Source: a virus. From it: a stretch of 41,335 nucleotides of DNA. The notes beneath the pieces were generated by a model. That model saw only the letters and a list, made by a program, of their open reading frames with translations. It searched no databases and was not told the DNA's origin. The stretch is taken from positions 1 to 41,335 of IMG/VR virus record IMGVR_UViG_3300044627_004500; one strand, 5' to 3'. The position numbers and the translations under genes are program-made. Of the stretch, positions 1 through 40,195 are shown one piece after another (positions within the stretch are counted from its first letter, which is position 1; the number at the start of each line of letters is the position of its first letter).

Positions 1-30
1 CCATCCTCGTTTTCGTCGACTCTCTCCCGA

Positions 31-2127
31 ATGCCACAAACTCCGCCAGCCACCGACGCCAAGCGCCGCCAGGACATCGAGCGGTCCCGCGAGCGGACAC
101 GTCTTGGCAGCGACATCGGCGAGGTGCCCGGCGTCGTCGATCCAGCGCGCCGCGCCGCCTGCCGGCTCGACCTCGAGCGTTTTTTGATCACGTACTTCCC
201 GATGTCGACGGGCCTGACTCCGTTCAGCCCAGACCACCGACGCGTCATCGAGCGGATTCAAGGTTGCATCATCGGCGGCGGCCGGTTCGTCAACGCGGTC
301 TACCGCGGCTTCGCCAAGTCAACGATTAGCGAGAACGCGATCATCTGGGCGACGCTGTATGGGCACCGTCGGTTCTGCGCGATCTTTGCCGGCGAAGGCG
401 GACTGGCAGCCAAGGCCATCGCCAGCGTCAAGCTCGAACTGGCCGAGAACGACCTACTGCACGACGACTTCCCGGAGGTGTGTCACGCGATCCGCGCGCT
501 CGAGGGCAAGGTGCAGCGGTGCAACTCCCAGACGCACCAGGGCGAGCAGACGCACATCCGCTGGCAGGCGGACTCGATCGTCATGCCGACGATCCCTGGC
601 TCGGTGGCGTCCGGCTCGATCGTGATGTCCCGCGGCCTGACCGGCTCGATCCTCGGCCTGCGTCACAAGAGCCCCGACGGCTCGCAGCTGCGTCCCGACT
701 TCGTCATCGTCGACGACCCGCAGACCCGCGAGAGCGCCGCCAGCCCGATGCAGTGCAGCAAGCGGCTGGAGATCCTGTCGAAATCGGTGATGAAGTTGGC
801 CGGCCACAGGTCGAGCATCGCGTGCGTGGTCAACGCCACGGTCATCCAGCACGACGACATGGTCGACCAGCTGCTCGACACGAAGAGGTACCCAGCGTGG
901 CAGGGCGAGCGGATCGCCATGGTCAAGCAGTGGGCGGACCGCCACGAGGACGACTGGCTCGGCCGGTACCGCGAGCTGCGGGTGACGTTCGACAAGGACA
1001 CGCCAGGGGACCAGGCCCGCGCGTGGGCCGAGGCCGACGCGTACTACCGCGACCACCGCGAGGCGATGGACGCCGGCTGCCAGGTGTCGTGGGAGAGCTG
1101 CTACGACCCGGAGCGGGAGCAGTCCGCAATCCAGCACGCCTACAACGCGTTCATCGACGACGGCCCGGACGTGTTCGCGTCGGAGTACCAAAACCAGCCG
1201 CTGCGTCAGGAGGCGCAGACCAACGCGATCACCAGCGAGGACGTGCGGAGCAACGTCGTCGAGGTGGCCAGGTGGGTGGTGCCCGGGCAGCTCGACACGC
1301 TGACGGCATTCATCGACGTGCAGGAAAAGGCGCTCTACTGGGCGGTGGCGGCGTGGGGTCACCAGTTCCGTGGCCACCTCGTGGCCTACGGCACGTGGCC
1401 GGAGCAGAACCGCGCGTATTTCACACTCCGTGACATCCGCCGCACCATGCAGACGGTGACGAAGCTCTCGTCGCTCGAGGCCGCCACCAACCAGGCGTTG
1501 GCGGAGGTGGCCGCCATGCTCTTGGACCGCGAGTTCGCACGCGAGACGGACGACGCGGTGCTGCGGATCTCGCAGGTCATGGTCGACGCCAATTGGGCGC
1601 AGACGCAGGGCGTGGTGCGTGACTTCGCCAGGCGGTCAACCTACGGTCCACGCGTGCTGCCAAGCCACGGCCGGTTTGTCGGTGCGTCCGGCTCGACCTT
1701 GTCGGACAAGCGGCCTGACCGCGGCGAGCGCGTCGGCAGCAACTGGCGGACGTCGACGATCCAAAAGCAGCGACACGTGCTCTACGACACCAACGCCTGG
1801 AAGACACTGATTGCGGCGCGGCTGAAGCTGCCGGCCGCCGACCCGCAGGCGTTCACAATTCACGCCGGCGACCACGCCATGCTGCTCGAGCACTTGGCCG
1901 CCGAGTACCCAGTGCGCACTGAGGCACGCGGCCGTGTCGTTGACGAGTGGCGGACGCTGCCAGGCCGTGACAACCACTGGCTCGACTGCGTGGTGGGTGC
2001 GGCCGTGGCGGCCAGCTACGCCGGCGTGACGGCGGTGGGCGTGAACACGCCGAGAAACCATCGCCGCAAGGTCACCATCCCGACGGCACCAGTCCGCAAG
2101 ATCGAGCTGCGGAGGATGGGTGCATGA
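31..2127 (+). CDS. terL: Terminase large subunit (TerL)
   Basis: DNA-packaging motor: an ATPase plus nuclease that cuts concatemeric DNA and drives it through the portal. The 698-residue length fits large terminases. A Walker A-like loop reads RGFAKST at about residues 92-98. Walker B is DFVIVDDP at about 223-230, ending in the expected acidic pair. The C-terminal half has RNase H-fold nuclease features, with FIDVQ near residue 427, VMVDANW further on, and HWLDC near the end as probable metal-binding acids. It is followed by portal and capsid genes in the usual order. The stop overlaps the next start in ATGA. No small terminase subunit was recognised nearby. The fold assignment is from motifs only. 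Sure of function, less of the exact terminase family. Confidence 0.9.
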   Translation: MPQTPPATDAKRRQDIERSRERTRLGSDIGEVPGVVDPARRAACRLDLERFLITYFPMSTGLTPFSPDHRRVIERIQGCIIGGGRFVNAVYRGFAKSTISENAIIWATLYGHRRFCAIFAGEGGLAAKAIASVKLELAENDLLHDDFPEVCHAIRALEGKVQRCNSQTHQGEQTHIRWQADSIVMPTIPGSVASGSIVMSRGLTGSILGLRHKSPDGSQLRPDFVIVDDPQTRESAASPMQCSKRLEILSKSVMKLAGHRSSIACVVNATVIQHDDMVDQLLDTKRYPAWQGERIAMVKQWADRHEDDWLGRYRELRVTFDKDTPGDQARAWAEADAYYRDHREAMDAGCQVSWESCYDPEREQSAIQHAYNAFIDDGPDVFASEYQNQPLRQEAQTNAITSEDVRSNVVEVARWVVPGQLDTLTAFIDVQEKALYWAVAAWGHQFRGHLVAYGTWPEQNRAYFTLRDIRRTMQTVTKLSSLEAATNQALAEVAAMLLDREFARETDDAVLRISQVMVDANWAQTQGVVRDFARRSTYGPRVLPSHGRFVGASGSTLSDKRPDRGERVGSNWRTSTIQKQRHVLYDTNAWKTLIAARLKLPAADPQAFTIHAGDHAMLLEHLAAEYPVRTEARGRVVDEWRTLPGRDNHWLDCVVGAAVAASYAGVTAVGVNTPRNHRRKVTIPTAPVRKIELRRMGA

Positions 2128-2381
2128 CCGACATCGTGACCCGCCTGCGCCGGTGGACGCACGACGTGAACGCCGCACCGGCGAGCGACCTGATGGACCA
2201 GGCGGCAAACGAGATCGAGCGGCTGCGGCTCACCGACGCGGAGCGCGAGGCGCTGTCGTCGGTGCTGGCTCGTCTGTGCTGCGAGATGACCGACGACGAG
2301 CGGCGGTTGATGTTCAGAATATGCCGCACACAAGGCGATCCGCGAAACGGTTCACAAGAAGGCAGCGAAACGGTTCAGTGA
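2124..2381 (+). CDS. Small hypothetical protein, possibly frameshifted at its 3' end
   Basis: An 85-residue charged, helical protein whose ATG overlaps the terL stop (ATGA), so it is probably translationally coupled. The stretch DLMDQAANEIERLRL is a short helical segment of a type common in small phage proteins. No function is known to me. After about residue 64 (MFRICRTQGDP) the sequence loses coding character. The +1 frame from about 2317 reads EYAAHKAIRETVHKKAAKRF, which looks like a natural continuation. A one-base indel near 2313-2316, real or from sequencing, is therefore possible. Confidence 0.6.
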   Translation: MTDIVTRLRRWTHDVNAAPASDLMDQAANEIERLRLTDAEREALSSVLARLCCEMTDDERRLMFRICRTQGDPRNGSQEGSETVQ

Positions 2382-2489
2382 GATCGCCATCGAACAGCGA
2401 CCCCGGCGGGCAGGCACCGGCCCGATAATCCGGCACGCCGAACCCGCCGTGGTCGTTTTTGGTGAAACTACGTAACACGCAGCAGCACC

Positions 2490-2633
2490 ATGTCCGCTCC
2501 GCTCATCCTCGGCGTCGGCGTCGTCTACCTCGCGGTGGCCTGCGACCAGTGGTCGAAGGGCAGCACCGGCATGGCCATCGCGTGGGCCGGCTACGCGCTG
2601 GCCAACATCGGCCTGGCTATGGCTGCCAAGTAG
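2490..2633 (+). CDS. Small two-helix membrane protein
   Basis: A 47-residue ORF beginning MSAPLILGVGVVYLAVACDQ and ending NIGLAMAAK. It has two hydrophobic segments, about residues 3-18 and 27-44, separated by a short polar turn (DQWSKGSTG), so it is probably a hairpin membrane peptide. Codons keep the high G/C third-position bias of neighbouring genes, which supports it as real coding. No strong Shine-Dalgarno sequence is visible (AGCAGCACC precedes the ATG). The function is unknown. A holin-like role is conceivable from size and topology, but its place among head genes gives no support for that. Confidence 0.55.
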   Translation: MSAPLILGVGVVYLAVACDQWSKGSTGMAIAWAGYALANIGLAMAAK

Positions 2634-6711: not shown

Positions 6712-7401
6712 ATGTCCGACATGCTCGCCGTAGGTGCGTCCTGGCTGGCTGACCGGCTGGCGACCTCGGCCGGGCGGACGGTGCGGTACGTGCGCGGTGC
6801 GACGACTGTGAACCTCACGGCGACGGTCGGCAGCTCCGTCTTTGAGGCTGCCGACCAGAACGGCGTCGTCGAGCGGTGGGAGTCTCGGGACTTCGTGATC
6901 AAGACGGCCAGTTTTCCGCTGGGCGTGCCGCAGCGGCACGACCGCGTGGTCGACACGCAGAGCGGCTCCGACGTGACGTACGAGGTGGCGGCACCTCGAG
7001 GTATCCCGGTCTGGCGGTACGGCGACGGGTTCCGAGCCACGATGCGCGTCCACACGAAGGCCGTCGCGGACGACACGGCCACCTCCCCTGCCCTGCTATT
7101 GCGGTGGTGGGGCGCGAGCACGGCCGCGGCGATCACGGACGGCCAGATTGCGTCGCAGCTGACGAGCGACATGGCCGACGGCCGCAGCCAGACGCGCACG
7201 ATCGTGGCGACGGCCGCCTACCTGCACTTTGTGCTCCCGGCGTCGTTCGGCTCGCCCACGTTTACGGTCGGCGGCTTGGTCAACTCTGCCTGGGAGACGA
7301 CGACCAGGTCGATCACGTTTACGGCGCAGGCCGCACGTAGCTACACGATCTACCGCAGCACGTACCCGATCACCGGCACCGTCGTCGTGGTGGTGAGCTG
7401 A
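6712..7401 (+). CDS. Head-tail joining (head closure) protein with C-terminal extension
   Basis: A 229-residue protein. Residues 1-110 have the beta-rich pattern of small head-tail joining or stopper proteins: [20 protein letters not shown], then YEVAAPRG, then [16 protein letters not shown]. The latter two blocks are typical of gpFII/stopper-like proteins. Residues ~110-229 form an added Thr/Ser-rich beta domain ([20 protein letters not shown]) that could be an immunoglobulin-like decoration module. It sits after head genes, but the tail terminator-like gene that normally follows is 9.3 kb away. Its stop overlaps the fibre start (TGATG). The family call is inferred from pattern and position. 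Confidence 0.6.
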
Positions 7402-10400
7402 TGGCCAACATTAAGGGCACGAACGTCGCCGCGCCGGTCGTGCCGTTCGACACGACCGACGTGCACCCGAGCCACGAGGCGCTCTACGGCAAGGGCGGCT
7501 ACCGCACGGTCGCCAGCAATGCGGACAGGGACGCGATCCCGTCCGCACGACGCGAGGCCGGCATGCTCGTGCACGTCACGGCCACGGGCCTGCTGTGGCA
7601 GCTGGGCAGCGACCTGACGACGTGGACGGAGTTCTCGACCTCAGGTGCGACCGGGCCAACCGGCCCGCAAGGATCGACGGGCGGCGTCGGTGCCACGGGC
7701 GTTGCCGGTGCGACCGGGCCAACTGGCGCCCAGGGCGAATCGATCACCGGACCGCAGGGCGTCCAAGGCGCGACAGGCCCGACCGGAAGCGTGGGTGCCA
7801 CAGGCTCGGTCGGCTCCACGGGCGCCGTCGGATCGACAGGACCGACAGGACCGCAAGGCGACATCGGAGGCACAGGTGCAACAGGCCCGACCGGTGCACA
7901 GGGCAGCTCGGGCGCGCAGGGCGCCACGGGAGCGACGGGGCCGACCGGCTCGTCTGGAGCCGTCGGCGACACCGGCGCTACCGGCCCGACAGGTGCCACA
8001 GGCGCCCAAGGCGAGCAAGGCCTGATCGGATTGACTGGGCCGACCGGTAGCCAAGGCGACGTCGGCGCGACGGGACCGCAAGGCATCCAAGGCGTTACCG
8101 GGCCAACCGGGTCGCAGGGTGTGCAGGGTGTCACCGGGCCAACAGGCGAGACAGGCGCGACAGGCCAGACCGGAGCGCAAGGCGTCGCCGGCGACACGGG
8201 CGCACAAGGCTCGACAGGGCCGACGGGGCCAACCGGCGCCCAAGGCGTGGTCGGCGACGTTGGCCAGACAGGCCCGACGGGAGCCGTCGGTGACGTTGGC
8301 AGCACCGGACCGACTGGCGCGCAAGGCCAGCAAGGCGTCACTGGCCCGACCGGACCAACCGGTGCCGTTGGCGCGCAGGGCGACGTTGGGTCGACAGGCG
8401 CAACAGGCCCGACGGGTGCCCAAGGTCTTATCGGCGAGACCGGCCCAACGGGTGCCCAAGGTGAGCAAGGCGTCACCGGACCAACCGGTGCCAGCGGCAC
8501 CCAAGGTGTGACAGGCCCAACCGGGTCGCAAGGTGAGCAAGGCGTGACAGGCCCAACTGGTGCCACTGGCGCGCAGGGCGACATCGGCAACACAGGGCCA
8601 ACAGGGCCAACGGGATCAGAGGGTGACGTGGGCGCAACCGGCGCGACCGGGCCGACAGGCGCTGTCGGTGGCCAGGGCGTGACTGGGCCGACGGGTGCGA
8701 CCGGCGCCCAGGGTGACGAGGGCGTGACCGGCCCGACAGGCGCCACTGGTGATCAAGGCGTGACAGGGCCAACAGGTGCCGTTGGTAGCCAAGGTGAGGT
8801 CGGTGCCACTGGCCCGACCGGCTCGCAGGGTGAGCAAGGTGTCACCGGGCCAACTGGCAGCACAGGGCCGCAGGGATCCGTTGGCGCGACAGGCGCCACC
8901 GGCCCGACCGGTGCCCAAGGTGACCAAGGCGTCACTGGGCCAACGGGCGCTGTCGGTGCACAAGGCGAAGTCGGGTCGACCGGGCCTACTGGGCCGACAG
9001 GCAGCACCGGGCCGCAAGGCATCGTCGGTGACACGGGATCCGTCGGTGCCACCGGCGCGACAGGACCGACAGGAGCTGTCGGATCGCAAGGCGTGCAAGG
9101 CGACGTGGGTGCGACTGGGCCAACAGGCGCGACGGGTGCCCAAGGCGACGTCGGATCGACCGGCGCAACAGGGCCAACCGGAGCGCAGGGCGCGACTGGC
9201 GACACGGGATCCGTGGGCGCGACCGGCGCCACAGGCCCGACCGGCTCCACCGGCAGTCAAGGCTCCCAAGGCGTGACAGGGCCAACCGGCGCAACCGGCC
9301 CGACAGGCGTGGCCGGCGTCGGGTTTAGCGACGGCGACAAGGGCGACATCACGATCTCGAGCACCGGCACGGTGCTGACGATCGACAACGACGCCGTCAC
9401 CTACGCCAAAATCCAAAACGTCTCCGCCACCGACCGCCTGCTCGGTCGCTCGTCTGCTGGTGCTGGCGACGTGGAGGAGATCACCTGCACGTCGTTTGGG
9501 CGCAGTCTGATTGACGACGCCAACGCGGAGGCGGCGCGTACCACGCTCTCGGTGCAGCCGACGGCTGGCCCCTCGTTCACTGCTGGCATCACTGTGACGC
9601 AGGCGATGGCCTCACCTACGGTAGTTCTGCGAAATACAGCCGCCGACGCAACAGACAAGGCGGCGCAGGTCGTCGGGGCACATTACACGGCGACCGAAGA
9701 GACCGTCCAAGGCATCGGCATCTACAGCACCGCGACGGAAAACCTAGTTGCGATCGGCGGCGGGTCGGCGCTCAGCAATGCGGCGAGTGAGGTAAGACTC
9801 TATACCGCAGCAAATGCCACTACTACCACCGGCACCATTCGCCTCACCATCTCCTCCACCGGCACCGCCACGTTCGCGGGGCAGATCGTCGGGCAGTCGG
9901 GGGCGGCGATTACAGGCAACGCCACCATCACGGCATCCAGCGGCATACCCCTCACGTTGAACGGCAACAGCACTGCACTACGGATCGAAGAGGGTGCGGG
10001 CGAGACAATCGACATATACCGAAACGTCTCTGATGGTTTGTGCTACTTCGACGCGAATCAGCAGACGTTCAGCGGGTTTGTGTTTCGCACCACGCCGACA
10101 GGTGGCAGCGTCACCACCCGCCTCACCATCTCCTCCACCGGCACCGCCACGTTCGCGGGGCAGATACTCGCGGACGACATCGACACGGCAAACAGCGTCG
10201 CCTATGGGTTCGATGGTGACCCCGACACAGGCATTGGCCGCAGAGGCGCGAACATTCTGACGTTCGTCACCAACGGCACCGAGCGGGTGCGCGTGGATGC
10301 GTCGGGGAATGTGGGGATTGGGGGATCGCCTTCCAGTCCGTGCCACATTAGGGCAAATAACGCCGACGACGGCGTGCTGCACGTAGAGCAGGACGGCACC

Positions 10401-10952
10401 GGGTCGGCGTCTGTGCGATGCGATTACGACGGCACCGGCGCGCGTTCATGGATTTTCGGCACCGCCGGGAGCGGGTATCGCGGCGGCGGATTTGGCGGTG
10501 AGTTTTTCCTGTATGACGAAACTGCTACGGCCGAGCGCATTCGCGTCAATAGCACGGGCGAGGTCATCGTCGGCGTCACCGACCAAGGCGCATACAACCT
10601 CCAATGCAACGGCACCGGAGTGTGGGGTGCTGGCGCGTATGTCAACGGCTCCGACGAACGAATCAAGAACGACATCGCTCCGCTGTCGTCATGCACCGAC
10701 GTGATAGAGGCTCTGCGGCCCGTGACATTCCGTTACAAGGAGTCATGGAGCAAGGATCAGAGCATCCAGCCGGGCTTCATTGCACAAGACCTTCAACAGG
10801 CATTGGCTGGTCAGCCGTACCTAGACGGCGTTGTCCAGCAGGGCACGGAGTATCTGTCTGTCGCGTACCAGACGCTGATCCCGCTGCTCGTCAAGGCACT
10901 GCAAGAGTCCAACGCACGCATCGCCGCACTAGAGGAGAGGATCAATGGCTGA
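7401..10952 (+). CDS. Collagen-like fibre with S74 intramolecular chaperone
   Basis: An 1183-residue fibre. The N-terminal ~80 residues ([20 protein letters not shown]) are probably the virion anchor. Residues ~81-640 are almost unbroken Gly-X-Y triplets dominated by GPTG, GATG and GAQG, a collagen-like trimeric stalk. Beta-rich modules follow, including the repeated [16 protein letters not shown]. The last ~100 residues are a peptidase S74 chaperone ([28 protein letters not shown]), which trimerises the fibre and cleaves itself, probably at the Ser of [25 protein letters not shown] forms its terminal coiled coil. The abundant Thr in the Y position could carry O-glycans, and sugar-handling genes follow. 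The gene lies at the head-tail junction, so the fibre may be a neck or head fibre. Confidence 0.85.
9840..9886 (+). repeat. 47-bp direct repeat, copy 1, inside the fibre gene
   Basis: Identical to 10119-10165. The two copies lie 279 bp (93 codons) apart in the same frame and encode [15 protein letters not shown]. They mark a duplicated fibre module and could recombine to change fibre length in 93-residue steps. Confidence 0.85.
10119..10165 (+). repeat. 47-bp direct repeat, copy 2, inside the fibre gene
   Basis: Second exact copy of the repeat at 9840-9886, in the same reading frame within the beta-rich part of the fibre. Confidence 0.85.
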
Positions 10953-15696: not shown

Positions 15697-16736
15697 AAAT
15701 CGGCATCTACGCGCTCGCCAAGAACGAGGAGTCCCATGCGATCGACTGGGCCGAGTCGACCGACGGCGCCGACGTGGTGATCGTCACGGACACCGGGTCG
15801 ACCGACTCGACCCCGCAGAGGCTGCGGTCCTGCGGCATCACGGTGATGACGGGCAACGTGATCCCGTGGCGGTGGGACGACGCGCACAACCTGTCGCTGT
15901 ACCACCTGCCGGACGACGTGGACGTGTGCGTGCGGCTGGACCTCGACGAGCGGCTGCAACCCGGGTGGCGGGAGGCGATCGAGCGGGCGTGGACTGGCAA
16001 CGTCAACAACCTGCGGTACCGGTACGTGTGGTCGTGGAAGTCACCGGGCGTGCCAGGGCTGGTCTTTCTCTCGGACCGCGTCCACGCCCGCCGCGGGTTC
16101 CGGTGGTCGGCACCGACGCACGAGGGGCTCGTGTGCTGGTCAGGCGAGAAGGTGCAGGCCGTTGCCGACGGTCTGGAGATCCATCACCACCGGACGCCTG
16201 GCAAGCGGCACAAGACGGACCTCGAGCTGCTTGAGGTGGCGGTCCGCGAGGCGCCGCACGATGCCCGCGCTCACTGGTACCTAGCCCGTGAGCAGGAATG
16301 GGTCGGGCACCCGGCCGCCGCGGCGACGTTCGCACACTACCTCGGCCTGCCGGGCACGCCGACCGAGCGGTCGTACGCATACCGCGCCCTGTACCGGCTG
16401 ACGCAAGACGAGCGGCATCTGCACCGGGCAGCCTACGAGGCGAAGGCGGAGCCCGACGCGTGGCAGCAACTCGCGTGGGTGCACTACCTTCGGCAGGAGT
16501 GGCAGGAGTGCCTGACGTTCGCCGAGGCGGCCATGCAGGCCACTGGTGAGTCGACGCACGCCACCGACCCGGACGCTGTGACCAAGGCCTACGACCTGGC
16601 TGCCGTGGCTGCCTGGAATCTAGGCAAGCACCCACAAGCCCTGCGGTACGCCCGCGAGGCTGTGCGACGATGCCCGGACGACCCGCGGCTCGTGAAGAAC
16701 GTGGAGCAGATCGAGGCCCATGAGCACGCTGCTTGA
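15693..16736 (+). CDS. GT2 glycosyltransferase with C-terminal helical repeats
   Basis: A 347-residue protein starting MKIGIYALAKNEE, with its ATG overlapping the methyltransferase stop. The N-terminal GT-A domain has DTGSTDST at about residues 33-40, a metal-binding DLDERL, and a later PTHEGL. From ~190 onwards, repeated helix pairs (ARAHWYLAREQEWVGH, WQQLAWVHYLRQEW, AAVAAWNLGKHPQAL) look like TPR units, a layout seen in several protein-directed GT2 enzymes. Together with the Thr-rich collagen-like fibres upstream, it is the best candidate for a fibre glycosyltransferase. The target is inferred. Confidence 0.85.
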   Translation: MKIGIYALAKNEESHAIDWAESTDGADVVIVTDTGSTDSTPQRLRSCGITVMTGNVIPWRWDDAHNLSLYHLPDDVDVCVRLDLDERLQPGWREAIERAWTGNVNNLRYRYVWSWKSPGVPGLVFLSDRVHARRGFRWSAPTHEGLVCWSGEKVQAVADGLEIHHHRTPGKRHKTDLELLEVAVREAPHDARAHWYLAREQEWVGHPAAAATFAHYLGLPGTPTERSYAYRALYRLTQDERHLHRAAYEAKAEPDAWQQLAWVHYLRQEWQECLTFAEAAMQATGESTHATDPDAVTKAYDLAAVAAWNLGKHPQALRYAREAVRRCPDDPRLVKNVEQIEAHEHAA

Positions 16737-17175
16737 TTTAGCCGACGCCGTGCGGTCAGGCCTCGACGCGACGACGCTGTCGTCGGTCGCCACACAGCCG
16801 AGCGTGGTGCGACTGAATTGGCCCGAGTACGAGATCGAGGAACTGGCCGACGCCGTGCTCGTGGTGTCGCCTGGTGCCGTGACCATTAATCGCGTCAACC
16901 GCACCAACCATGAGTACACGTACGGAATCAACGTATTCGTCGCAAGGCACACGCCAACCGAGGAAACCGCCGACGACATGTACGAGCTGGCCGAAGAAGT
17001 TATTGACGTGCTGAGGTCGCACGTCTGGCCTGCCGGCGTCACGTTCCCTACTGGCGTCACATCGCCGTCGTCTGTCGAGATGGAGGTGAACCCGGACCAG
17101 GCCCTACAAGAGCGCAACGTTTGGAGGGCTGTCATCACAGCCAGCTACATCGTCTTCCGTGCGGTCAACACGTGA
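16720..17175 (+). CDS. Tail terminator-like protein
   Basis: A 151-residue protein overlapping the glycosyltransferase by 17 nt. Its alternating helix and strand pattern (LLDLADAVRSGLD, then TYGINVFVARHTPTEETADDMYELAEEVIDVLRS, then ITASYIVFRAV at the end) is that of tail-terminator/tail-completion proteins such as gpU and their neighbours. It lies just before the tail-tube genes. In a simpler phage it would follow the head-tail joining gene at 6712-7401 directly. Family call by pattern and position. Confidence 0.55.
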   Translation: MSTLLDLADAVRSGLDATTLSSVATQPSVVRLNWPEYEIEELADAVLVVSPGAVTINRVNRTNHEYTYGINVFVARHTPTEETADDMYELAEEVIDVLRSHVWPAGVTFPTGVTSPSSVEMEVNPDQALQERNVWRAVITASYIVFRAVNT

Positions 17176-17861
17176 TGGCGAGCATTTCGCAGCTGACCCG
17201 CGGTGGCTCCTTCACGCCCCTGCCAGGCGGTGGGTTCAAGTTCACGCTCGACCTGCCCAAGAGCAAGTTCAAAATCCAGAACGAGCGCATTCGACGCAAG
17301 GTCGGCGAGGCTCGCGCCAAAGCGTTGACCAGAGTCGGCGCCATTGTGATGCGTCGCACCCAAGGTGCGATGTCCAACCGTGTGCCGCGCAAGCGACCTG
17401 TCAACGTCACGGTTGGTACCAGGTTCAACCTCAAACTGGTCGCGCTCGTCAACCGCGTGCCACTGTCCGACAAGGTGACAAGCTGGAAGACCACGCGCAA
17501 TCCCAAGGGAATGCTGCTGTCGGACATTCAGTTCGACTACGACAGAAGATCCGAGTCGGTCGTTGTCGGGCCGGCCAAGTTTCCAAAACTCAACGCGCTG
17601 GTGGAGCGTGGCGGGTCTTCCAGACGCTGGTTCAAGCCGATCCCCAAAAGCGGAAGAGGCCGGGTGTACGGCGTGCTGACCAACACGCCGCCAAAAGAGG
17701 GCTCGTCCAAGAGACGGAGTCGTGACGGCAGGCGACGGACCATGACAGGCGCCTACTCGTTCAAGATCCGCATCAAGCGCAGGCAGTACATGCAGAAGGG
17801 CCTCAGGCTGGCGCAACCACGCATTGAGAAAGAGTTCCGCGACCAGATCCGCGGCCCCTAG
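17175..17861 (+). CDS. Tail completion/neck protein, HK97 gp10-like by position
   Basis: A 228-residue, strongly basic protein; ATG 17175 overlaps the previous stop (TGATG). Long Lys/Arg helices near residues 25-60 (KSKFKIQNERIRRKVGEARAKALTRVGAIVMRRTQGAM) and a basic end (FKIRIKRRQYMQKGLRLAQPRIEKEF) resemble the flanking helices of gp10-type tail-completion proteins, with a central beta region. It sits immediately before the tail-tube genes. No sequence motif is decisive. Confidence 0.5.
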   Translation: MASISQLTRGGSFTPLPGGGFKFTLDLPKSKFKIQNERIRRKVGEARAKALTRVGAIVMRRTQGAMSNRVPRKRPVNVTVGTRFNLKLVALVNRVPLSDKVTSWKTTRNPKGMLLSDIQFDYDRRSESVVVGPAKFPKLNALVERGGSSRRWFKPIPKSGRGRVYGVLTNTPPKEGSSKRRSRDGRRRTMTGAYSFKIRIKRRQYMQKGLRLAQPRIEKEFRDQIRGP

Positions 17862-19712: not shown

Positions 19713-21880
19713 GTGCTTCAGCAGTCCGGATGGGTCGTGCGTTCGTCGAGATCGGCGCGGACGCGTCGAAGCTCTACGGCACGATCGCCCAGGTCAACAA
19801 GCGCATCGGCCAAATGGGGGCGAACCTGCGGCAGGTCGGCGGCCAGATGGCGGCCGCCGGTGCCGCACTAACCGCTCCCGTCGTCGCCGCCGTCGGCGCG
19901 GCATCGCGGTTCGAAGACGTGCTCCTGTCGATGCGTGCGTCGACCGGTGCGACTGCCGAGCAGCTCGACGCTGTGCGAGCGGCTGCCATGACCATGAGTG
20001 CAGCTCTCGGCATCGGGCCGACGCAGGCGGCTCAAGGATTTTTGGAACTGCTAAAGGCGGGCGTATCGCTCGAGCAGGTTCTGGGCGGTGCCGGCCAGGC
20101 CGCCGTGCAGTTCGCGAAGGTCGCACAGATGGACGTGGCGTCGGCGGCAGTCGTGATGGCCGACGCGATGAACGTGTTCGGTGTCACAAGTGCCAAGGCC
20201 GCCGACACGCTCTCCGCTGCCGCAGACGCGTCGAGCACGTCGATCGAAGGCATAGCGCTGGCGATGTCACAAGTCAGCGCCGTGGCCGGCCTCGCCAACC
20301 AATCCATCGAGGACACGTCGGCGGCGCTCGCGCTCCTGGCCAACGCCGGCATCAAGGGTTCTGACGCCGGCACGTCGCTCAAGACGATGTTGCAACGTCT
20401 CATGGCTCCGGCCGACGAAGCCGTTGACGCGCTTGCAAGACTAAACCTCACAGTCGACTCATTCCGCGACGCCGAAGGCAAGATGCTGCCAATGGTGCAG
20501 ATCATCGGCCGGCTCAATCAGGCCATGGCCGGCATGGACCAGGCAGCCAAGGATGACGTGTTTCGGCAAATCTTCGGGTCGGATGCAATCCGTGCCGCGG
20601 CGGTGCTGACCACCGCAGGTGTCGATGGCTTTGCGGCGATGCGCGATGGCATGGCTGGTGCGCTGTCGGTCGCCGACAAGTTCGGAGTCACGATGGGCGG
20701 ATTGAGCGGCACGGGCCTCGGCCTGTTGGCGTCGCTCGAGCGACTGGCCATCGCCATTGGATCCGCCTTGGCGCCATCGCTAACGCAGGCCTTTGTGACG
20801 CTGTCGCGGTTTGCCGAAGGCGCGGCGGCGTTTGTGTCGAACAATCAAGAGACGATCGCACTGGTCGCACAGCTCACGGCTGGATTTATCGGCTTAAGCG
20901 TGGCGATCTACGCCGTTGGCGGCGGCCTTGCTGTGGTCTCCGCGACGGTGAGCGCGATCATGTCGCCGATCGTGCTCATACCTGCACTGATCGCCGCTGC
21001 GGTAGCTGGTCTGGTCGCTTTTACCGGAAATTGGTCTGCACTAAGCGACGCAGTCGCCGACGCCGACCTCGTCGGTGCCGTCGAGGTGGTGATAAACAGC
21101 ATCTTGAACATTTTCACGATGGCCGGCACGCAGCTGTACGTCGTGTGGGACCAAATGTGGAGCAATGTGGTGCAGTCAGCAAACACCGTCGGCGCTGTGC
21201 TCACGGGCATCATGGATAACATCTTGAACGGAATCATGGCGTCCTGGGATGCCATGGTCGCGACCGTGCAAAAGTCATGGAATTACGTGCAGTCTTTTCT
21301 GCAAAAGGGCTACGACCTTGCCAAAGAAAACGAAAAGGTCGACAGCGAGATGGCGGCTAGGGCCAGACAGCGCGAACAGGACCGGCCAGGCGTGGCAGGC
21401 AGGATGGCTCAGGCTGACAAGGAGAATCAACAAACTGCGGCCGACTCCGACCGTCGTGTGAGAGCGGCTCAAGATGCCGCACAGGACAAGGTTCAGGAGC
21501 GCGCGGACAGTGTCGAGCGACGCCGACAGCAGAGAGAAGCCGACAGAAAGGCCGCTGCAGAGGCCAGGAAGCCAGCACCAGGGGCCGAGCCGGCGCCAGC
21601 GTCGAATCCGGCACGCGACGCGGCCAATCGTCAGGCCGAGGACCTGTCGAATCCGAGCGTGGCTGCCGACTCACAGCCGGCCGACGCTTCGGCCATGCAA
21701 GCCGGAATGCAAAACGAGGAACGCAGTCGCACGGACATAGCCGGCACGTTTTCGGCTGCTGCGATCGGCGGCCTCGGCGTCGGATCAAGCCTTTCGCAGC
21801 GCCAGATCGACCTGCTTACGGCCATTGACAAGGGCATAGTCAAGCTGGTCGACCAAGGCACAGACGCAGTCGCAACGTAG
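19709..21880 (+). CDS. Tape measure protein
   Basis: A 723-residue protein that sets tail length and probably helps DNA pass into the cell. Residues 1-330 have the PhageMin_Tail/TMP core pattern: VEIGADASKLYGTIAQVNKR, LLSMRASTGATAEQLDAVR, QAAQGFLELLKAGVS, LANAGIKGSDAGTSLKTML, IRAAAVLTTAGVDGF. Hydrophobic segments lie around 395-445 (TAGFIGLSVAIYAVGG, IVLIPALIAAAVAGLVAF). The C-terminal ~200 residues are Gln/Arg/Ala-rich coiled coil (ERADSVERRRQQREADRKA). At about 0.15 nm per residue the tail would be near 110 nm (a rule of thumb). ATG overlaps the T stop. Confidence 0.9.
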   Translation: MSASAVRMGRAFVEIGADASKLYGTIAQVNKRIGQMGANLRQVGGQMAAAGAALTAPVVAAVGAASRFEDVLLSMRASTGATAEQLDAVRAAAMTMSAALGIGPTQAAQGFLELLKAGVSLEQVLGGAGQAAVQFAKVAQMDVASAAVVMADAMNVFGVTSAKAADTLSAAADASSTSIEGIALAMSQVSAVAGLANQSIEDTSAALALLANAGIKGSDAGTSLKTMLQRLMAPADEAVDALARLNLTVDSFRDAEGKMLPMVQIIGRLNQAMAGMDQAAKDDVFRQIFGSDAIRAAAVLTTAGVDGFAAMRDGMAGALSVADKFGVTMGGLSGTGLGLLASLERLAIAIGSALAPSLTQAFVTLSRFAEGAAAFVSNNQETIALVAQLTAGFIGLSVAIYAVGGGLAVVSATVSAIMSPIVLIPALIAAAVAGLVAFTGNWSALSDAVADADLVGAVEVVINSILNIFTMAGTQLYVVWDQMWSNVVQSANTVGAVLTGIMDNILNGIMASWDAMVATVQKSWNYVQSFLQKGYDLAKENEKVDSEMAARARQREQDRPGVAGRMAQADKENQQTAADSDRRVRAAQDAAQDKVQERADSVERRRQQREADRKAAAEARKPAPGAEPAPASNPARDAANRQAEDLSNPSVAADSQPADASAMQAGMQNEERSRTDIAGTFSAAAIGGLGVGSSLSQRQIDLLTAIDKGIVKLVDQGTDAVAT

Positions 21881-26286: not shown

Positions 26287-26849
26287 CACTGGACGAGAGC
26301 AACGCTGCCCTGCGGGCGGCTGTGACGGCACGACACGAGGGCATGGCAGCGTCGCTGGCGGGCTGCCCGCCGGCGCAGGCCGCGGCGGCGAGCGTGCTGT
26401 CGGACCCGTCGCCGTGTTGCGACGGCGGCCGCACGATCCCGGTCGACTACATCCTGCGTGGCGAGGCCGAACTGCGTGCGGCGGCCGCCGGCTGGAAGCA
26501 GACGGTCGAGGACGCCAAGCCGGCACGGCTGGCACGGGAGTCGTCGCTGCGGCCTGGCTCGGCCGAGTTCCTCGCCGTGCTCGACGAGCTGCGTGAGCTG
26601 CACCTGCGCAAGACACTCGACTACGGCGTCGACGAGGACGCGCTGTCGAACATTCGCACGAGCGCCGACTACGTGAACGTGCCGGCGTGGGCGGGCTGCG
26701 TGATCAGGCTGGCCGACAAGATGCACCGTCTGCGGGCCTACTTTCGCCGTGGCAAGGTGGAGTTCGACGGCATCCCTGACACGCTGCTCGACATGGCGGC
26801 CTACAGCATCATCGCCCTAGTGCTGTACCGCGAGTCCGAGCGTCCATAA
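26283..26849 (+). CDS. MazG/DUF1599-like all-alpha nucleotide pyrophosphatase-like protein
   Basis: A 188-residue protein from GTG 26283. Residues ~1-90 are a Cys-bearing N-terminal part (SDPSPCCDGG). Residues ~95-185 have the pattern of DUF1599/nucleotide-modification-associated proteins: LDELRELHLRKTLDYGVDED, then ALSNIRTSADY, VIRLADKMHRLRAYFRRG and DTLLDMAAYSIIALVLY. Conserved acids (DELRE, DK, DTLLD) resemble the metal site of MazG-fold NTP pyrophosphatases. Phage members hydrolyse or sanitise nucleotides and in some phages support base-modified genomes. Whether that holds here is unknown. Confidence 0.6.
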   Translation: MTLDESNAALRAAVTARHEGMAASLAGCPPAQAAAASVLSDPSPCCDGGRTIPVDYILRGEAELRAAAAGWKQTVEDAKPARLARESSLRPGSAEFLAVLDELRELHLRKTLDYGVDEDALSNIRTSADYVNVPAWAGCVIRLADKMHRLRAYFRRGKVEFDGIPDTLLDMAAYSIIALVLYRESERP

Positions 26850-26889: not shown

Positions 26890-27135
26890 ATGGAGGACGG
26901 CAGCGTGATCGCCCACTACCGGCACCGCAGCGGCCAGCGCGAGGCGATCCCGTCGCCGTCCGACGCTGTGTCGCTGGCCGCGGTCTACACGCCGACGCAG
27001 CAGACGTGGGGAAAGCTCACGTCCAAGAAGCCGGCCAGGCTGTCGCCCGAGGACATCGCCCTGGCCGCGTTCCGTCTGGGCGTCAAGCCCGCGGTCGCCC
27101 GTCAGGCCATCGAGATGGGGCTTTTCGATGGCTGA
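26890..27135 (+). CDS. Hypothetical protein (81 residues)
   Basis: Starts with ATG directly behind a promoter-like hexamer. The first half is beta-like (SVIAHYRHRSGQREAIPSP); the second half (LSPEDIALAAFRLGVKPAVARQAIEMG) resembles a short helix-turn-helix unit. No family was recognised. It overlaps the next gene by 8 nt and may be the first gene of the 26890-32110 accessory operon. Confidence 0.55.
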   Translation: MEDGSVIAHYRHRSGQREAIPSPSDAVSLAAVYTPTQQTWGKLTSKKPARLSPEDIALAAFRLGVKPAVARQAIEMGLFDG

Positions 27136-27631
27136 CACACTGACCGCGACGATGCGGACCGTGATGATCTGGGACCGCACGGTCGACCAGGACATCGGCA
27201 CGACCGTGTCCGCGAAGACCGACCAGAACACCTACGCGATCACCGACGGCAGCGGCAGCCGGCAGGCGGACCTCGTCTATGCGGCCAACCGCACCATCGC
27301 CGCAAACACGCTCGAAGAGATCGACCTGCGGGCAATCACGCAGACCACGCTCGGCGTCACCGTGAACTACGACTTCCGCCAGCTGCGGCTGGTGCGCGTG
27401 GTCAACAACGAGACGACAAGCGGTCGCAAGATCCGCGTCGGCTGCGACCCGGGCCGGCCGAGCGTCGCCTACGCGTCCGAGATCGGGCCGGGCTCGGAGT
27501 GGTTCACGATCAATCACGTCAACGCCTGGCCGGTCACGTCGACCAACCAGCTCATGTACATCGCCAACCCCAACGCCGCGGCGGTGAGCTACTCGCTGTA
27601 TTTGGTCGGCACCTCCGTGGCACCCACCTGA
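27128..27631 (+). CDS. Beta-rich virion-type protein, function unknown
   Basis: A 167-residue beta protein (ATMRTVMIWDRTVDQDIGTTV, VTVNYDFRQLRLVRVVNNET, LMYIANPNAAAVSYSLYLVG). The final block is of a type found in phage surface or structural proteins. The next gene resembles it in length and in its own closing strands, and the two are probably related or interacting. They may be minor capsid, decoration or spike proteins encoded outside the main head block. Confidence 0.5.
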   Translation: MADTLTATMRTVMIWDRTVDQDIGTTVSAKTDQNTYAITDGSGSRQADLVYAANRTIAANTLEEIDLRAITQTTLGVTVNYDFRQLRLVRVVNNETTSGRKIRVGCDPGRPSVAYASEIGPGSEWFTINHVNAWPVTSTNQLMYIANPNAAAVSYSLYLVGTSVAPT

Positions 27632-28098
27632 TGCCTCCCGTCCTCACCATCACCGGCCAACTGCGGCTCGCGGCGTCATGGGTCGACGACCTGACGCTGA
27701 CGACCGTCACCGACTCCGCGTCTGTGTTGCAGACGCTGTCGCTCGCCAACGGCACCGGCGCCGGCCAGGTCAACGGCTACTGGCGGGACGTGCGCACCGT
27801 CGGCATCTCGGCCACCGACACCATCAACACGACGGCGCTGCCGCTGTCGGTCTTCGGTACGGCCGGCACGCTCAATCTGGCGAGCGTCAAGCTGATCTAC
27901 GTCCGCAACCAGTCGGCGACGGTCACGCTGACCTACGACATCGCCGGCACCAACTGCGGGCTGCCGCCGGGTGCGGTGTTTCTGTGGACCGCCGGCACGG
28001 CGCCGACCAACAAGTGGTTCGACAGCGGCAACATCGTGATCGAAGGCGGATCGGCGTCCGCCACGTACGAGATCGTCCTGGCGGGAGTGAAGGCATGA
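27631..28098 (+). CDS. Beta-rich virion-type protein, partner of the preceding gene
   Basis: A 155-residue protein from ATG 27631 (TGATG overlap). It shares the overall strand layout with its neighbour (LKLIYVRNQSATVTLTYDIAG-type segments, here VKLIYVRNQSATVTLTYDI). The end reads SASATYEIVLAGVKA. A structural role is inferred from beta content. No known family was identified. Confidence 0.5.
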   Translation: MPPVLTITGQLRLAASWVDDLTLTTVTDSASVLQTLSLANGTGAGQVNGYWRDVRTVGISATDTINTTALPLSVFGTAGTLNLASVKLIYVRNQSATVTLTYDIAGTNCGLPPGAVFLWTAGTAPTNKWFDSGNIVIEGGSASATYEIVLAGVKA

Positions 28099-28469
28099 TC
28101 TCCGACGCACCGGTGATGGCCGCAGGCGGCGAGGCCACGCTGATGGCGCAGGTCGCCGCGTTCCTCGAGGTCGCCAAGGCCAAGGCCGCCGGCGGCATCA
28201 CGTGGGCCGAGTTTGGCGAGCTGCTGATTGCTCTCCTGCGGCTGTCCGTCGAGACGCTCGACGCCGTGCTCGGCATGAGCGGTGCCCAGAAAAAGGCGCT
28301 AGTGCTCGAGGCCGTTGCCGCGCTCTTTGACCAGCTCGCGGACAAGGCAGTCCCGGTCGTCGTCTGGCCGGTCTGGATTCTCGCCCGACCCGCCATCCGG
28401 GCGCTCGTGCTGGCGATCGCCAGCGGTGCCATCGAGATCGTCCTGCCGCTCACGAGGGCCGCTGAATGA
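28095..28469 (+). CDS. Small membrane-associated protein
   Basis: A 124-residue protein; ATGA overlap with the preceding gene. Residues 1-75 form amphipathic helices (LMAQVAAFLEVAKAKAAGG, WAEFGELLIALLRLS). Residues ~85-118 are a strongly hydrophobic segment (VPVVVWPVWILARPAIRALVLA) that probably spans or inserts in the membrane. It precedes another membrane protein and a membrane-anchored protease, suggesting a lysis or envelope-targeting cluster. Confidence 0.45.
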   Translation: MISDAPVMAAGGEATLMAQVAAFLEVAKAKAAGGITWAEFGELLIALLRLSVETLDAVLGMSGAQKKALVLEAVAALFDQLADKAVPVVVWPVWILARPAIRALVLAIASGAIEIVLPLTRAAE

Positions 28470-29008
28470 TGCCGCTCCTGCTCGTCGCCGTGGCCGCCGT
28501 GGCGCTCGCCTGGCCGTGGATTCAGGCCCACTACCACGAGTGGCGGTGGCCGCAGCTCGACAGCCGCCACCTGGCCGCAGCCGCGCTCGTCGCGGCAGCC
28601 GCGTGGTCGTACGTGGCCAGCTTGCCGGCCACGCCAGCGCCGGCTCCTGCCCCGGACCCGGCGTCGTTCACGCTGCGCGGCAAGTTCGTCGGGCCGGATG
28701 CCGCCCGGGATGCGGCGCTGGTCGCCGCCCTGTGCACCGAGCTGGCCAACGAGATCGAGTGGGACTCGAGCCAGCCCGAGCCGCTCATCCGCACCGGCGT
28801 GGCGTTCGACGAGTTGCGGGTCCGCAGCCGCGTCCTCCTGTGCCGTGGCGAGTCGCTGGGGGCCAAGCACCCGCTCGCGCGTCAGGCGATCGAGGACTAC
28901 CTCAACACCGTCGCAGGCACCGCAGGAGGCCCGCTCACGCCCGAGCAGAAGGCCAAGTGGGTGGCGGCATACCGTGAGGTCGCCCGGGCAGCGGAGGCCG
29001 CCAGGTGA
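28466..29008 (+). CDS. Membrane protein with two N-terminal helices
   Basis: A 180-residue protein, MMPLLLVAVAAVALAWPWIQ at the start, then a second hydrophobic stretch (LAAAALVAAAAWSYVAS) at ~35-50. After a Pro/Ala-rich linker (TPAPAPAPDP) residues 70-180 form a charged, helical soluble domain. The topology (membrane anchor, linker, soluble domain) resembles phage spanin or envelope-protein layouts, but no lipobox or family was recognised. It overlaps the protease gene by 4 nt (GTGA). Confidence 0.5.
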   Translation: MMPLLLVAVAAVALAWPWIQAHYHEWRWPQLDSRHLAAAALVAAAAWSYVASLPATPAPAPAPDPASFTLRGKFVGPDAARDAALVAALCTELANEIEWDSSQPEPLIRTGVAFDELRVRSRVLLCRGESLGAKHPLARQAIEDYLNTVAGTAGGPLTPEQKAKWVAAYREVARAAEAAR

Positions 29009-30066
29009 GCGCTCCCAAGCATCCGTGGCGCCTCGTGGCGGCTGCGGCACTGGTCGTCTGGCTCGTGCTCTCATTCTGGTGGGCGGCCGGCGAGGTGCGG
29101 CAGCCGGCGATCCTGACCGGCTACGTGCCGGACCCCGAGGGCGTCGCCCGGTTCCTCGAGGAGCTGCCCGAGCCCTACTTCGCCCAGGCCGGCGCGGACG
29201 CCATGCGTCAGGCCGTGCCGGTCGACACGTTTCTCTACCGGCAGATGGACCGAGCGCACCGCGCCCGGTACGGCACGCCGTTCGTCGTAGGCCGCCAGGG
29301 CATTGGCGACTGCGTGTCGTGGGGCGCGATGCACGCGGTCTATTGCGCCGAGGCCGTGGACTGGGCGACGGGCAAGCTGGCCGAGCCGCCCAAGATGCCG
29401 GCGAGCGAGGCGATCTACGGCGGTGCCCGGGTTGAGGCTCGCGGCCGGGACGGCTCCGGGCGGTCGCCGGTTGGCGGGTGGAGCGACGGTGCCACCGGAT
29501 GGGGAGCGGCCCGCTGGCTGCGTGACTGGGGCGTCGTGTACCGCGAGGACGTGCTAGGGCACGACCTGCGGACGTACGACAAGGCCCGCGCCAAGGCGTG
29601 GGGCGCATACGGCTGCGGCGGCCAGGGCGACGACGGCAAGCTCGACGCGCGTGCCAAGCGGCATCCGTGCCGGCACGTCGTGGCGGTCAAGACATGGGAC
29701 GAGCTGGTAGCAGCGGTGACCTCGGGCTACCCGGTGACCATCGCCAGCTCGGTCGGCTTCAACAGCGGCAACCGCGACGCCGACGGCTTCTGTGCCGCGT
29801 CCGGCACGTGGATGCACCAGATGGCCGTCATCGGCGTGAGGTTCGGCAACCGCACGGGTGGCCTCGTCTGCAACTCATGGGGAAACTACGTGGGCGGCGG
29901 CAAGTTCCCGCCGGACCAGCCAGACGGCACATTCTGGGCCGAAAAGTCGGCCATCCAGCGAATCCTTGCACAGGGCGACAGCTACGCCATCGGTGGCGTG
30001 GACGGGTTTGCGTACCGCGAGATTCACAACGGCGACTGGCTGCAGCCGCCACCGGAGGAGCAATGA
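29005..30066 (+). CDS. Membrane-anchored papain-like cysteine protease
   Basis: A 353-residue protein from GTG 29005 with an N-terminal transmembrane helix at ~9-29 (LVAAAALVVWLVLSFWW). The rest is a C1-papain-like domain: catalytic Cys103 in GIGDCVSWG (Gln of the oxyanion hole expected a little upstream, GRQG), His271 in WMHQMAVIG, and Asn290 in CNSWGNYVGG. All three catalytic blocks are in the expected order and spacing. A membrane-anchored papain-like protease is unusual in a phage; roles in lysis, envelope passage or processing of virion proteins are possible. It overlaps its neighbours on both sides. Confidence 0.8.
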   Translation: MSAPKHPWRLVAAAALVVWLVLSFWWAAGEVRQPAILTGYVPDPEGVARFLEELPEPYFAQAGADAMRQAVPVDTFLYRQMDRAHRARYGTPFVVGRQGIGDCVSWGAMHAVYCAEAVDWATGKLAEPPKMPASEAIYGGARVEARGRDGSGRSPVGGWSDGATGWGAARWLRDWGVVYREDVLGHDLRTYDKARAKAWGAYGCGGQGDDGKLDARAKRHPCRHVVAVKTWDELVAAVTSGYPVTIASSVGFNSGNRDADGFCAASGTWMHQMAVIGVRFGNRTGGLVCNSWGNYVGGGKFPPDQPDGTFWAEKSAIQRILAQGDSYAIGGVDGFAYREIHNGDWLQPPPEEQ

Positions 30067-30317
30067 CGGACAGGCATCGCATGGTGGCCATGGTCGTGAT
30101 CGCGGTGGCCGTCGGTTGGTACGCCGGCTCCGGTGCGTCCCGCGATCCCAAGCCGCTCGACGACCGCCCAGTGCTGCGGTGGATCGCTCGGGCCGCCAAG
30201 TCGCTCTTGTGGGTGGCCGTGTTCGTCGAGGAGCCGCCCGCCGAGCAGCACGCCGAGATCCGCTCGCACATCGGCTCCGACGGATACGTGGCGGTCGATC
30301 ACGGACGAGGGTGGTGA
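30063..30317 (+). CDS. Small membrane protein
   Basis: An 84-residue protein; ATGA overlap with the protease. Hydrophobic residues ~6-23 (RMVAMVVIAVAVGWYAG) and ~43-57 (AAKSLLWVAVFVEE) form one or two membrane segments. No lipobox or holin motif was recognised. Tight coupling to the cysteine protease and the preceding membrane genes places it in the same cluster. Confidence 0.5.
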   Translation: MTDRHRMVAMVVIAVAVGWYAGSGASRDPKPLDDRPVLRWIARAAKSLLWVAVFVEEPPAEQHAEIRSHIGSDGYVAVDHGRGW

Positions 30318-30318
30318 C

Positions 30319-30627
30319 ATGTGGCGCTGGATCGTCTGGTTCCTCACGTGGCTGTCCGCAGACCCAGCCGACATCGGCCGCGAGTCGGCACGGGCAGCCG
30401 CGTCGATCGCTGCGGCACGCGCCACGATGGTCACGTCGCCCGATGTGCCGCCCGACCCGGCTCCCCCGGACGGCACGTGCTGCATCGACTGCGGCGGCAC
30501 CGGCGTGATCGTGCACGGCGACGGGCACAAGACGCCATGCCCGTGCCCGGCCTCGTGTGCGTGCAAGCGGCCACGAGCGCCGATGCCTGCGGCGTCGCCC
30601 ACGCCTGGCAAGCCGGCCACGCCATGA
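30319..30627 (+). CDS. Small protein with Cys-rich (DnaJ-like) zinc motif
   Basis: A 102-residue protein from ATG 30319. It starts with an amphipathic Trp-rich segment (MWRWIVWFLTWLSADP), then a helical Ala/Arg region. Residues ~54-85 carry CCIDCGGTGVIVHGDGHKTP and CPCPASCACK, in which CxxCxGxG is the DnaJ zinc-finger type. The terminal segment is Pro-rich. Together with the N-terminal hydrophobic stretch this suggests a membrane-associated zinc protein. Function unknown. Confidence 0.5.
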   Translation: MWRWIVWFLTWLSADPADIGRESARAAASIAAARATMVTSPDVPPDPAPPDGTCCIDCGGTGVIVHGDGHKTPCPCPASCACKRPRAPMPAASPTPGKPATP

Positions 30628-34980: not shown

Positions 34981-35190
34981 GTGCTAGTGCTCACGCGAGC
35001 GGAGGGCGAGCGTGTCGTCGTGCCGCATGCACGGATGGAAATCGTGGTGCAGGAGATCCGCGGCAACGTCGTCCGCCTGGCGTTTCGAGCGCCACAGCGT
35101 GTCGACATCTTCCGCGGCGAGGTGTTCGACAGGATCGCGATGGATCAGTGGGACGAGGACGAACCAACTCAAGAGGAGGACGTGAAGTGA
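34981..35190 (+). CDS. csrA: CsrA-family RNA-binding regulator
   Basis: A 69-residue protein from GTG 34981 with AAGGAGG 6 nt upstream. The N-terminus MLVLTRAEGERVVV and the later VRLAFRAPQRVDIFRGEVFD match CsrA beta strands 1 and 5. The two RNA-contact regions are present, Leu4/Arg6 and Arg45 (equal to the conserved Arg44). The acidic tail (DQWDEDEPTQEED) is longer than usual. CsrA dimers bind GGA in 5' leaders and usually block translation or change mRNA stability; a phage copy could redirect host carbon metabolism or motility, or tune phage mRNAs. Its own leader contains an AGGAGG. Confidence 0.85.
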   Translation: MLVLTRAEGERVVVPHARMEIVVQEIRGNVVRLAFRAPQRVDIFRGEVFDRIAMDQWDEDEPTQEEDVK

Positions 35191-39412: not shown

Positions 39413-40195
39413 ATGCGAGCCCTGGTCGTGATCCTCGCGCTAGCCCTGACGCACCCAGCCGTCGCTGGGACCAGGGACGACGGCGTGCCGGATGCCCGGT
39501 ACCTCGAGCTGGGTCGGCAGATGCGGCCGTACACGGCCGCGGTCAGCTGCCGCAGCCCCGAGGGGCATCGGCACACGGCCACGGCGGTGGTCATCGCCGG
39601 CCGCTGGGCGCTGACGGCGGCACACGTCGTGGCCGGCTGCGACGACGTGCGGCTGGCGTTCGCGGACACGTCACGGGACGTCGACCTGGTCGTCGTGCAC
39701 CCGGGCTGGGAGCGGCTGGCCATGGCCAGCGAAGACCTGGCGATCCTGCGGACGACCGAGGACTGTGCCCTGCCCTGGTACCCGGAGATTGCCGAGACGG
39801 TCACGGCCGGCGAGGCCTGCATCGTCGCCGGCTACGGCGTGACGGGCACCATGTGGCGAGGCTACGAGATCGCAGACGGCCGGCTCCGAGCCGGCACGCA
39901 GACGATCGACTCGATCGACGGGCCGATCGTCACCTGCTCGGCACGGGCCAAGTCGTCGCCGCTCGAGTACATGATCGCCCCGGGCGACAGTGGCGGGCCG
40001 CTGTTCGTTGGGTCTGGGTCACACGCCAAACTGGCCGCCATCAACTCGCATCAGGTCGGGCCACGTGGGCCACTGCGTTCACGTTACGGCGAGGAGAGCG
40101 GGCACGTGCTGCTGCACCCTGTGCGTGCGTGGATGACGTCCGTCATGGAGGCCAACCATGGGACGCATGAGCCGCCAGAAGGGCAAGCGCGGTGA
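39413..40195 (+). CDS. Secreted trypsin-like serine protease
   Basis: A 260-residue protein with an N-terminal signal peptide, MRALVVILALALTHPAVAG, cut near Ala17-Gly19. The trypsin/chymotrypsin triad is complete: His71 in LTAAHVV, Asp108 in EDLAILRT, and Ser193 in PGDSGGPL. Secreted or periplasmic proteases of this kind are unusual in phage early regions. It may modify the host surface, degrade extracellular proteins or act in superinfection exclusion. It has its own candidate promoter and overlaps the next gene by 38 nt, so it may be a morphologically independent cargo gene. Confidence 0.85.
   Translation: MRALVVILALALTHPAVAGTRDDGVPDARYLELGRQMRPYTAAVSCRSPEGHRHTATAVVIAGRWALTAAHVVAGCDDVRLAFADTSRDVDLVVVHPGWERLAMASEDLAILRTTEDCALPWYPEIAETVTAGEACIVAGYGVTGTMWRGYEIADGRLRAGTQTIDSIDGPIVTCSARAKSSPLEYMIAPGDSGGPLFVGSGSHAKLAAINSHQVGPRGPLRSRYGEESGHVLLHPVRAWMTSVMEANHGTHEPPEGQAR

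Follow-up and report, generated by a model that had tools for sequence, protein, structure and literature searches.

Organization of the gene block

The window, by which we mean the whole 41,335-nucleotide stretch of DNA analysed (IMG/VR record IMGVR_UViG_3300044627_004500), carries five consecutive genes, here named A to E, the third of which encodes a papain-like protease (Table 1). Neighboring reading frames overlap by four bases each at the S2-A (28095/28098), A-B (28466/28469), B-C (29005/29008) and C-D (30063/30066) junctions. The original prediction had described four small membrane proteins set around the protease, within a cluster extending from 28095 to 30317; the products of A, B and D, encoded in this interval, are indeed membrane proteins, but the number four is reached only if the protease itself is counted, and the fifth gene, E, had been missed. 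The pair S1/S2, which is translationally coupled to the cassette in the group of the window phage, was found in 39 of the loci searched and is missing beside the cassette in others.

Table 1. Coordinates of the genes and features discussed in the text.
Feature	Record	Position	Strand	Description
S1	window	27128-27631	+	beta-rich protein related to S2; phrog_22694; outside the core module
S2	window	27631-28098	+	beta-rich protein related to S1; phrog_22694; overlaps A; outside the core module
A	window	28095-28469	+	124 aa; holin-like small membrane protein; two hydrophobic segments; no family match
B	window	28466-29008	+	180 aa; N-terminal membrane helices (two hydrophobic segments), Pro-rich linker, conserved helical domain
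C	window	29005-30066	+	353 aa; membrane-anchored papain-like (C1A-type) cysteine protease; Q98, C103, H271, N290
D	window	30063-30317	+	84 aa; single-pass membrane protein; conserved C-terminal ...DHGRGW
E	window	30319-30627	+	102 aa; hydrophobic/amphipathic N-terminus; Cys-rich CxxCGGxG...CPCPxxCxCK motif
Collagen-repeat protein	window	7401-10952	+	1183 aa; tail-fibre-like; in tail region; Pfam Collagen 5e-78
CsrA-like	window	34981-35190	+	RNA-binding regulator
Trypsin-like protease	window	39413-40195	+	secreted serine protease; signal peptide, TAAHV and GDSGGP motifs; Pfam Trypsin 1.6e-16
A-B fusion	pPLIM01 (L208)	21-1133		holin-like segment, lipobox, Pro-rich part and helical protein
C homologue	pPLIM01 (L208)	1184-2218		
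Small membrane protein	pPLIM01 (L208)	2215-2622		Cys-containing
CsrA-like	pPLIM01 (L208)	26404-26613		RNA-binding regulator
Thioredoxin-like	L085	11364-11933		secreted; at the position of E
Thioredoxin-like	M337 (L102/L103 join)	20610-21182		secreted; at the position of E
Thioredoxin-like	M303 (L110/L111 join)	16692-17777		secreted; at the position of E; also bears the Cys-rich motif of E
Locus of anchorless C homologue	L117	8552-10881		with lipoprotein-like and small membrane proteins

A homologue of A is present in a Blastopirellula prophage, and in pPLIM01, a replicon of Planctopirus limnophila described below, A is fused to B. The AlphaFold2 model of B (pLDDT 87) found no match in the PDB, and in the distant relatives M303 and L115 the protein takes a lipobox form. 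The Cys-rich motif of E is zinc-like. In Blastopirellula prophages a secreted thioredoxin-like protein stands in place of E, and such proteins, with CPYC, CPHC or CGPC motifs, were located at this position in three planctomycete prophage loci (Table 1).

A papain-like protease with a membrane anchor

The reading frame of C is open throughout its 353 codons, and its GTG start overlaps the stop codon of B. The protein has a single strong hydrophobic segment, rich in Ala, at residues 10-28 (Kyte-Doolittle 2.2), and because this segment is preceded by a charge of +2, the catalytic part should lie on the periplasmic side of the membrane. Its active-site set consists of Gln98 (at the oxyanion position), Cys103, His271 and Asn290, with Trp292 contained in an NSWG motif; the Gln-Cys spacing is 5, that of papain being 6. 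A scan of IMG/VR returned 125 relatives of C. In an alignment of 163 homologous sequences, drawn from contigs that partly overlap and with some entered twice, the residue counts, gaps being left out, were 161/161 for Q98, 160/160 for C103, 155/155 for H271 and 152/155 for N290. Both the single N-terminal transmembrane helix and the Cys103/His271/Asn290 triad read from the window earlier are therefore borne out, the triad at exactly those numbers and nearly invariant. Between C and seven relatives dN/dS amounted to 0.085-0.25, and purifying selection acts on the gene.

The AlphaFold2 model of C (pLDDT 83.5, pTM 0.82) was compared with the PDB using Foldseek, a structure-based search that had been proposed with the original prediction. 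The best match was xylellain (3ois; E 2.2e-10, target TM 0.70), followed by procathepsin B, cathepsins and papain (E 1e-10 to 1e-6). Since the active site is conserved, dN/dS is low and the model matches papain-family structures, we regard the papain-type identity of C as going beyond chance. In BFVD, the matches of the model include phage proteins annotated as N-acetylmuramidase fragment and as peptidoglycan-binding-like, as well as, weakly, a viral cathepsin. The Pfam profile of Peptidase_C1 (PF00112) gave no match to C and, among 27 relatives, one at E 0.14, while a sequence profile of C reached cathepsin L2 in the PDB only at E 0.19, over the His-Asn half. Because PF00112 does not recognise it, C is best placed outside the curated C1 family, as a remote relative that, judging from its sequence and model, would work like a C1A protease. 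Counted from full frames, the hydrophobic anchor is present at 77 of 90 distinct N-termini of C; it is absent from some distant homologues (M303, L114 and L117).

Conservation, exchange and genomic position of the block

Of 80 viral loci examined, 69 span A to D, the remaining 11 being cut by contig ends. The A-B-C-D genes occur in identical order and on the same strand in 69/69 of the spanning loci, and E follows D in 63 of these. In a second scan, for which B served as the query, C adjoined B in all 68 further loci with room for it, and none of these showed gene displacement, in which another gene beside B would replace C. A set of loci (L028/L032, L034-L037 and L061) has the block in common with the window, C being 55-70% identical, and shares no other window gene with it at E<1e-5; an HK97-type phage, G404 (L131/L132), carries the block along with a capsid and a terminase that differ from those of the window phage. 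The block therefore passes between phages as one unit, and a cassette common to phages without other shared genes is what an exchangeable lysis module would show.

In the window the block is located near the integrase. In several other phages it lies beside the terminase. In pPLIM01, the A-B fusion, C and the small Cys-containing membrane protein are followed by HNH and TerL, so that the block is directly upstream of HNH-TerL. In G404, A-B-C-...-HNH and TerS-TerL lie at opposite ends of the record, and the block counts as upstream of HNH-TerS/TerL when the record is taken as circular. The Blastopirellula prophage shows A-B-C-D, the thioredoxin-like secreted protein, and then TerL and the portal, and in L114 the block is next to TerL/portal. 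The distant forms in L115 and L118 consist of a small membrane protein, a lipoprotein, C and another small membrane protein, and then come portal or other structural genes. Exchange between unrelated phages and a place by the terminase or late genes, both of which would be expected of a lysis cassette, are thus found together in this block.

Carriers and hosts

The named carriers are Planctomycetota, a restriction that rests on a genome scan of low sensitivity and on a plasmid search. The genome scan, which used two peptide patterns on one genome for each of 84,980 species, yielded four relatives of C: Blastopirellula marina DSM 3645, a Pirellulales MAG, a Planctomycetaceae MAG and one further MAG. 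In a sample of Planctomycetota, 12 of 392 genomes gave matches; in one of these 12, the second contig agrees with pPLIM01 at every one of the 3,375 bases compared. Among 72,556 plasmids, pPLIM01 from P. limnophila DSM 3776 was the sole match, and a tblastn search of 50,697 records of isolated phages with C and two distant homologues returned none.

The closed 37-kb replicon pPLIM01 is annotated as a plasmid (NC_014149.1, 1-37010), but its genes for packaging and the head (terminase, portal, ClpP-type protease, capsid, connector) and for the tail (tail tube, tape measure), together with those for an integrase, ParB and Gam, make it a complete HK97-type phage-plasmid. Its C gene was matched by the C profile with an hhalign probability of 98.8. 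A second C homologue sits in a prophage on the P. limnophila chromosome (L118), making two copies in all. Both the window and pPLIM01 also carry a CsrA-like gene (Table 1). On another planctomycete chromosome (L117), an anchorless C homologue lies with its small neighbors amid apparent host genes; this locus would be either a prophage remnant or a domesticated lysis module.

Search for lysis families and a classical endolysin

No gene of the cassette is named in any library searched: none has a counterpart among the holin, spanin or endolysin families of Pfam, PHROGs or NCBIfam (for spanins, nothing above chance), and C has no lysin family in any of the three. As regards the features of such proteins, (i) A is small and has two hydrophobic segments, which might make it a holin, and (ii) B is membrane-anchored with a Pro-rich linker and, in distant relatives, a lipobox, which might make it a spanin.

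In the remainder of the window, which may be incomplete, Pfam and PHROGs recognised families of head and tail proteins, recombination, CsrA and trypsin, among others, and no peptidoglycan hydrolase among the ORFs scanned, 47 further ones in Pfam included. A classical endolysin among the unassigned window genes was therefore rejected within these two libraries, in agreement with the original prediction, which had recognised none. Likewise, the near-complete genome G404, which has an integrase and a complete set of structural genes, matched 25 Pfam families, none of them a lysin; pPLIM01 showed no lysin among its 54 annotated CDS nor, four weak families aside, among the Pfam matches displayed; and Amidase_2 was absent from 17 records. 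Almost nothing in G400 matched Pfam, and this genome is too divergent for the absence of a lysin to count.

Comparison with known systems

With xylellain and other C1A enzymes (cathepsin B/L, papain), C shares the fold, the Gln-Cys-His-Asn order and the NSWG motif. It differs from them in an identity of 19% or less, the missing Peptidase_C1 match, the N-terminal membrane anchor, the lack of a recognised propeptide and its place in a five-gene phage block. The block itself resembles the SAR endolysin-holin cassettes (P1 Lyz, Mu gp22, N4), where the N-terminal helix of the enzyme serves for its export and small membrane proteins adjoin it in a similar module position. C, too, has an N-terminal anchor with a catalytic domain that would lie outside, and in both cases relatives occur with and without the anchor. 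In contrast, SAR endolysins are muramidases or transglycosylases, their helix is weakly hydrophobic and able to leave the membrane while the anchor of C, although Ala-rich, is strongly hydrophobic and may differ in this, and the partner genes of the two cassettes are unrelated in sequence. Overall, the block would function as membrane-anchored endolysin cassettes do, with an enzyme acting in the manner of a papain-family protease, but C falls under neither the curated C1 profile nor a lysis family.

Two further viral systems are alike in one respect each. PeiW and PeiP of Methanothermobacter (pro)viruses are pseudomurein endoisopeptidases and, compared by description, resemble C as cysteine-peptidase lysis enzymes fitted to an unusual cell wall, but they belong to family C71, have no membrane anchor and act on pseudomurein. 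The v-cathepsin of baculoviruses is, like C, of the papain family (a viral cathepsin being among the weak fold matches) and serves the break-up of the host at the end of infection, but in a eukaryotic virus, at the level of tissue and without a cassette of membrane proteins.

A candidate lysis cassette of planctomycete phages

The block is real and conserved, and it most likely represents a novel form of phage lysis cassette: we estimate at about 0.6 the probability that A to E serve a group of tailed Planctomycetota phages for lysis (egress), with C in the place of the endolysin. The reading is drawn from a pattern, no cassette gene matching a lysis family, since the late-gene position, the adjoining small membrane protein and the occurrence of C in anchored and soluble forms are traits of lysis enzymes. 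In such a cassette, C would sit in the inner membrane in N-in orientation, and its papain-like domain would project into the large host periplasm. B would be anchored beside it as an obligate partner (a holder, a regulator or a substrate adaptor); it may be considered a dedicated partner because it always adjoins C and, in pPLIM01, forms a fusion with A. Of the small membrane proteins A and D, the former would probably be a holin-like trigger, and E, or its thioredoxin-like substitute, may prevent oxidation of the catalytic Cys or of disulphide-rich targets. Once triggered, C would cut peptide bonds of the envelope until the envelope fails, the substrate being either an envelope protein or a peptidoglycan peptide, or else host hydrolases would be unleashed.

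Planctomycetes possess lysozyme-sensitive peptidoglycan sacculi (PMC4432640), and because lysozyme disrupts their peptidoglycan, lysis without a classical peptidoglycan hydrolase needs an extra explanation: C would have an unusual activity or recruit hydrolases of the host, or one of the hypothetical genes would encode an enzyme that went unrecognised. The presence of C-like genes amid apparent host genes (L117) also speaks against lysis. The inference first made from the window, a non-standard lysis or envelope-passage module for a host with a proteinaceous or unusual envelope, thus survives as to the module, which is conserved, self-contained, specific to planctomycete phages as far as carriers are named, adjacent to the terminase in several of them and accompanied by no recognised classical endolysin in the best-covered genomes; it lacks support as to a proteinaceous wall, which echoes an older view of planctomycetes that the same work disproves for the whole wall (PMC4432640).

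Two versions of the lysis reading differ in the target. That C cuts envelope proteins (of a protein-rich outer layer, or outer-membrane or periplasmic ones) or proteolytically activates host autolysins, lysis being the result, is a tentative proposal with the odds against it. It accords with the papain-type fold and active site, with the thioredoxin-like partner of some cassettes, which would fit disulphide-rich targets, and with the secreted trypsin-like protease also encoded by the window phage and common to its relative G396, but this last gene is missing from the other loci compared, and the disproof of a purely proteinaceous wall (PMC4432640) weighs against the proposal as well. The other version, which we find rather doubtful, takes C for a true peptidoglycan endopeptidase, that is, a new papain-like class of endolysin cutting stem or cross-link peptides within an otherwise ordinary holin-endolysin system. 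Other papain-fold enzymes (CHAP, NlpC/P60) do cut peptidoglycan, and the muramidase-fragment and peptidoglycan-binding-like phage proteins among the BFVD matches point the same way, as does the possession of peptidoglycan by planctomycetes (PMC4432640); yet the Gln-Cys-His-Asn set and the closest folds are those of protein-cutting C1A proteases, not of CHAP or NlpC, and no peptidoglycan-binding domain was detected in C. The general proposition that phages of this phylum lyse their hosts by regulated, redox-assisted proteolysis of envelope proteins, through a membrane-anchored papain-like protease and with no peptidoglycan hydrolase, is speculative and, in our judgement, rather unlikely.

A role in non-lytic egress is possible, because a cultured planctomycete phage is described as leaving its host chronically, without lysis (PMC10945688). 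A lysogenic-conversion or superinfection-exclusion module, acting from the membrane to degrade proteins of incoming phages or of the host surface, would suit the temperate carriers (an integrase in the window; prophages), the proximity of the block to that integrase and its membrane proteins, which are typical of exclusion systems; it is nevertheless improbable, as the block runs in the late-gene direction, is adjacent to the terminase in several phages and keeps its order in every spanning locus, where exclusion genes are usually patchy, and as no other lysis genes were found in the best-covered phages. That C is a virion or assembly protein, such as a tail- or head-associated protease or an entry enzyme, is suggested by its location after the probable structural genes S1/S2 (phrog_22694) in the window and is very improbable given its membrane anchor, its travelling without head or tail genes and the presence of a separate prohead protease.

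The route by which phages leave planctomycetes, a phylum with a long-disputed cell envelope, seems undescribed: the papers searched on phage exit from these bacteria yielded only the chronic, non-lytic phage (PMC10945688) and no lysis gene, and both papain and planctomycetes go unmentioned in a 2025 survey of lytic proteins from prokaryotic viruses (PMC12596118). If the lysis reading is true, a cassette built on a papain-like protease would represent a new enzymatic route of lysis and a means of finding out what keeps the planctomycete envelope intact, as well as a marker by which uncultured phages could be assigned to planctomycete hosts. P. limnophila lends itself directly to a test, since it has two copies of C and since gene deletion and an inducible promoter are available for it (PMC11958385).

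Two other genes of the window are of note (Table 1). The trypsin-like protease has a 97.7% identical copy in G396 (L136), the sole one among the loci compared, and the tail region contains the gene for a large collagen-repeat protein resembling a tail fibre.
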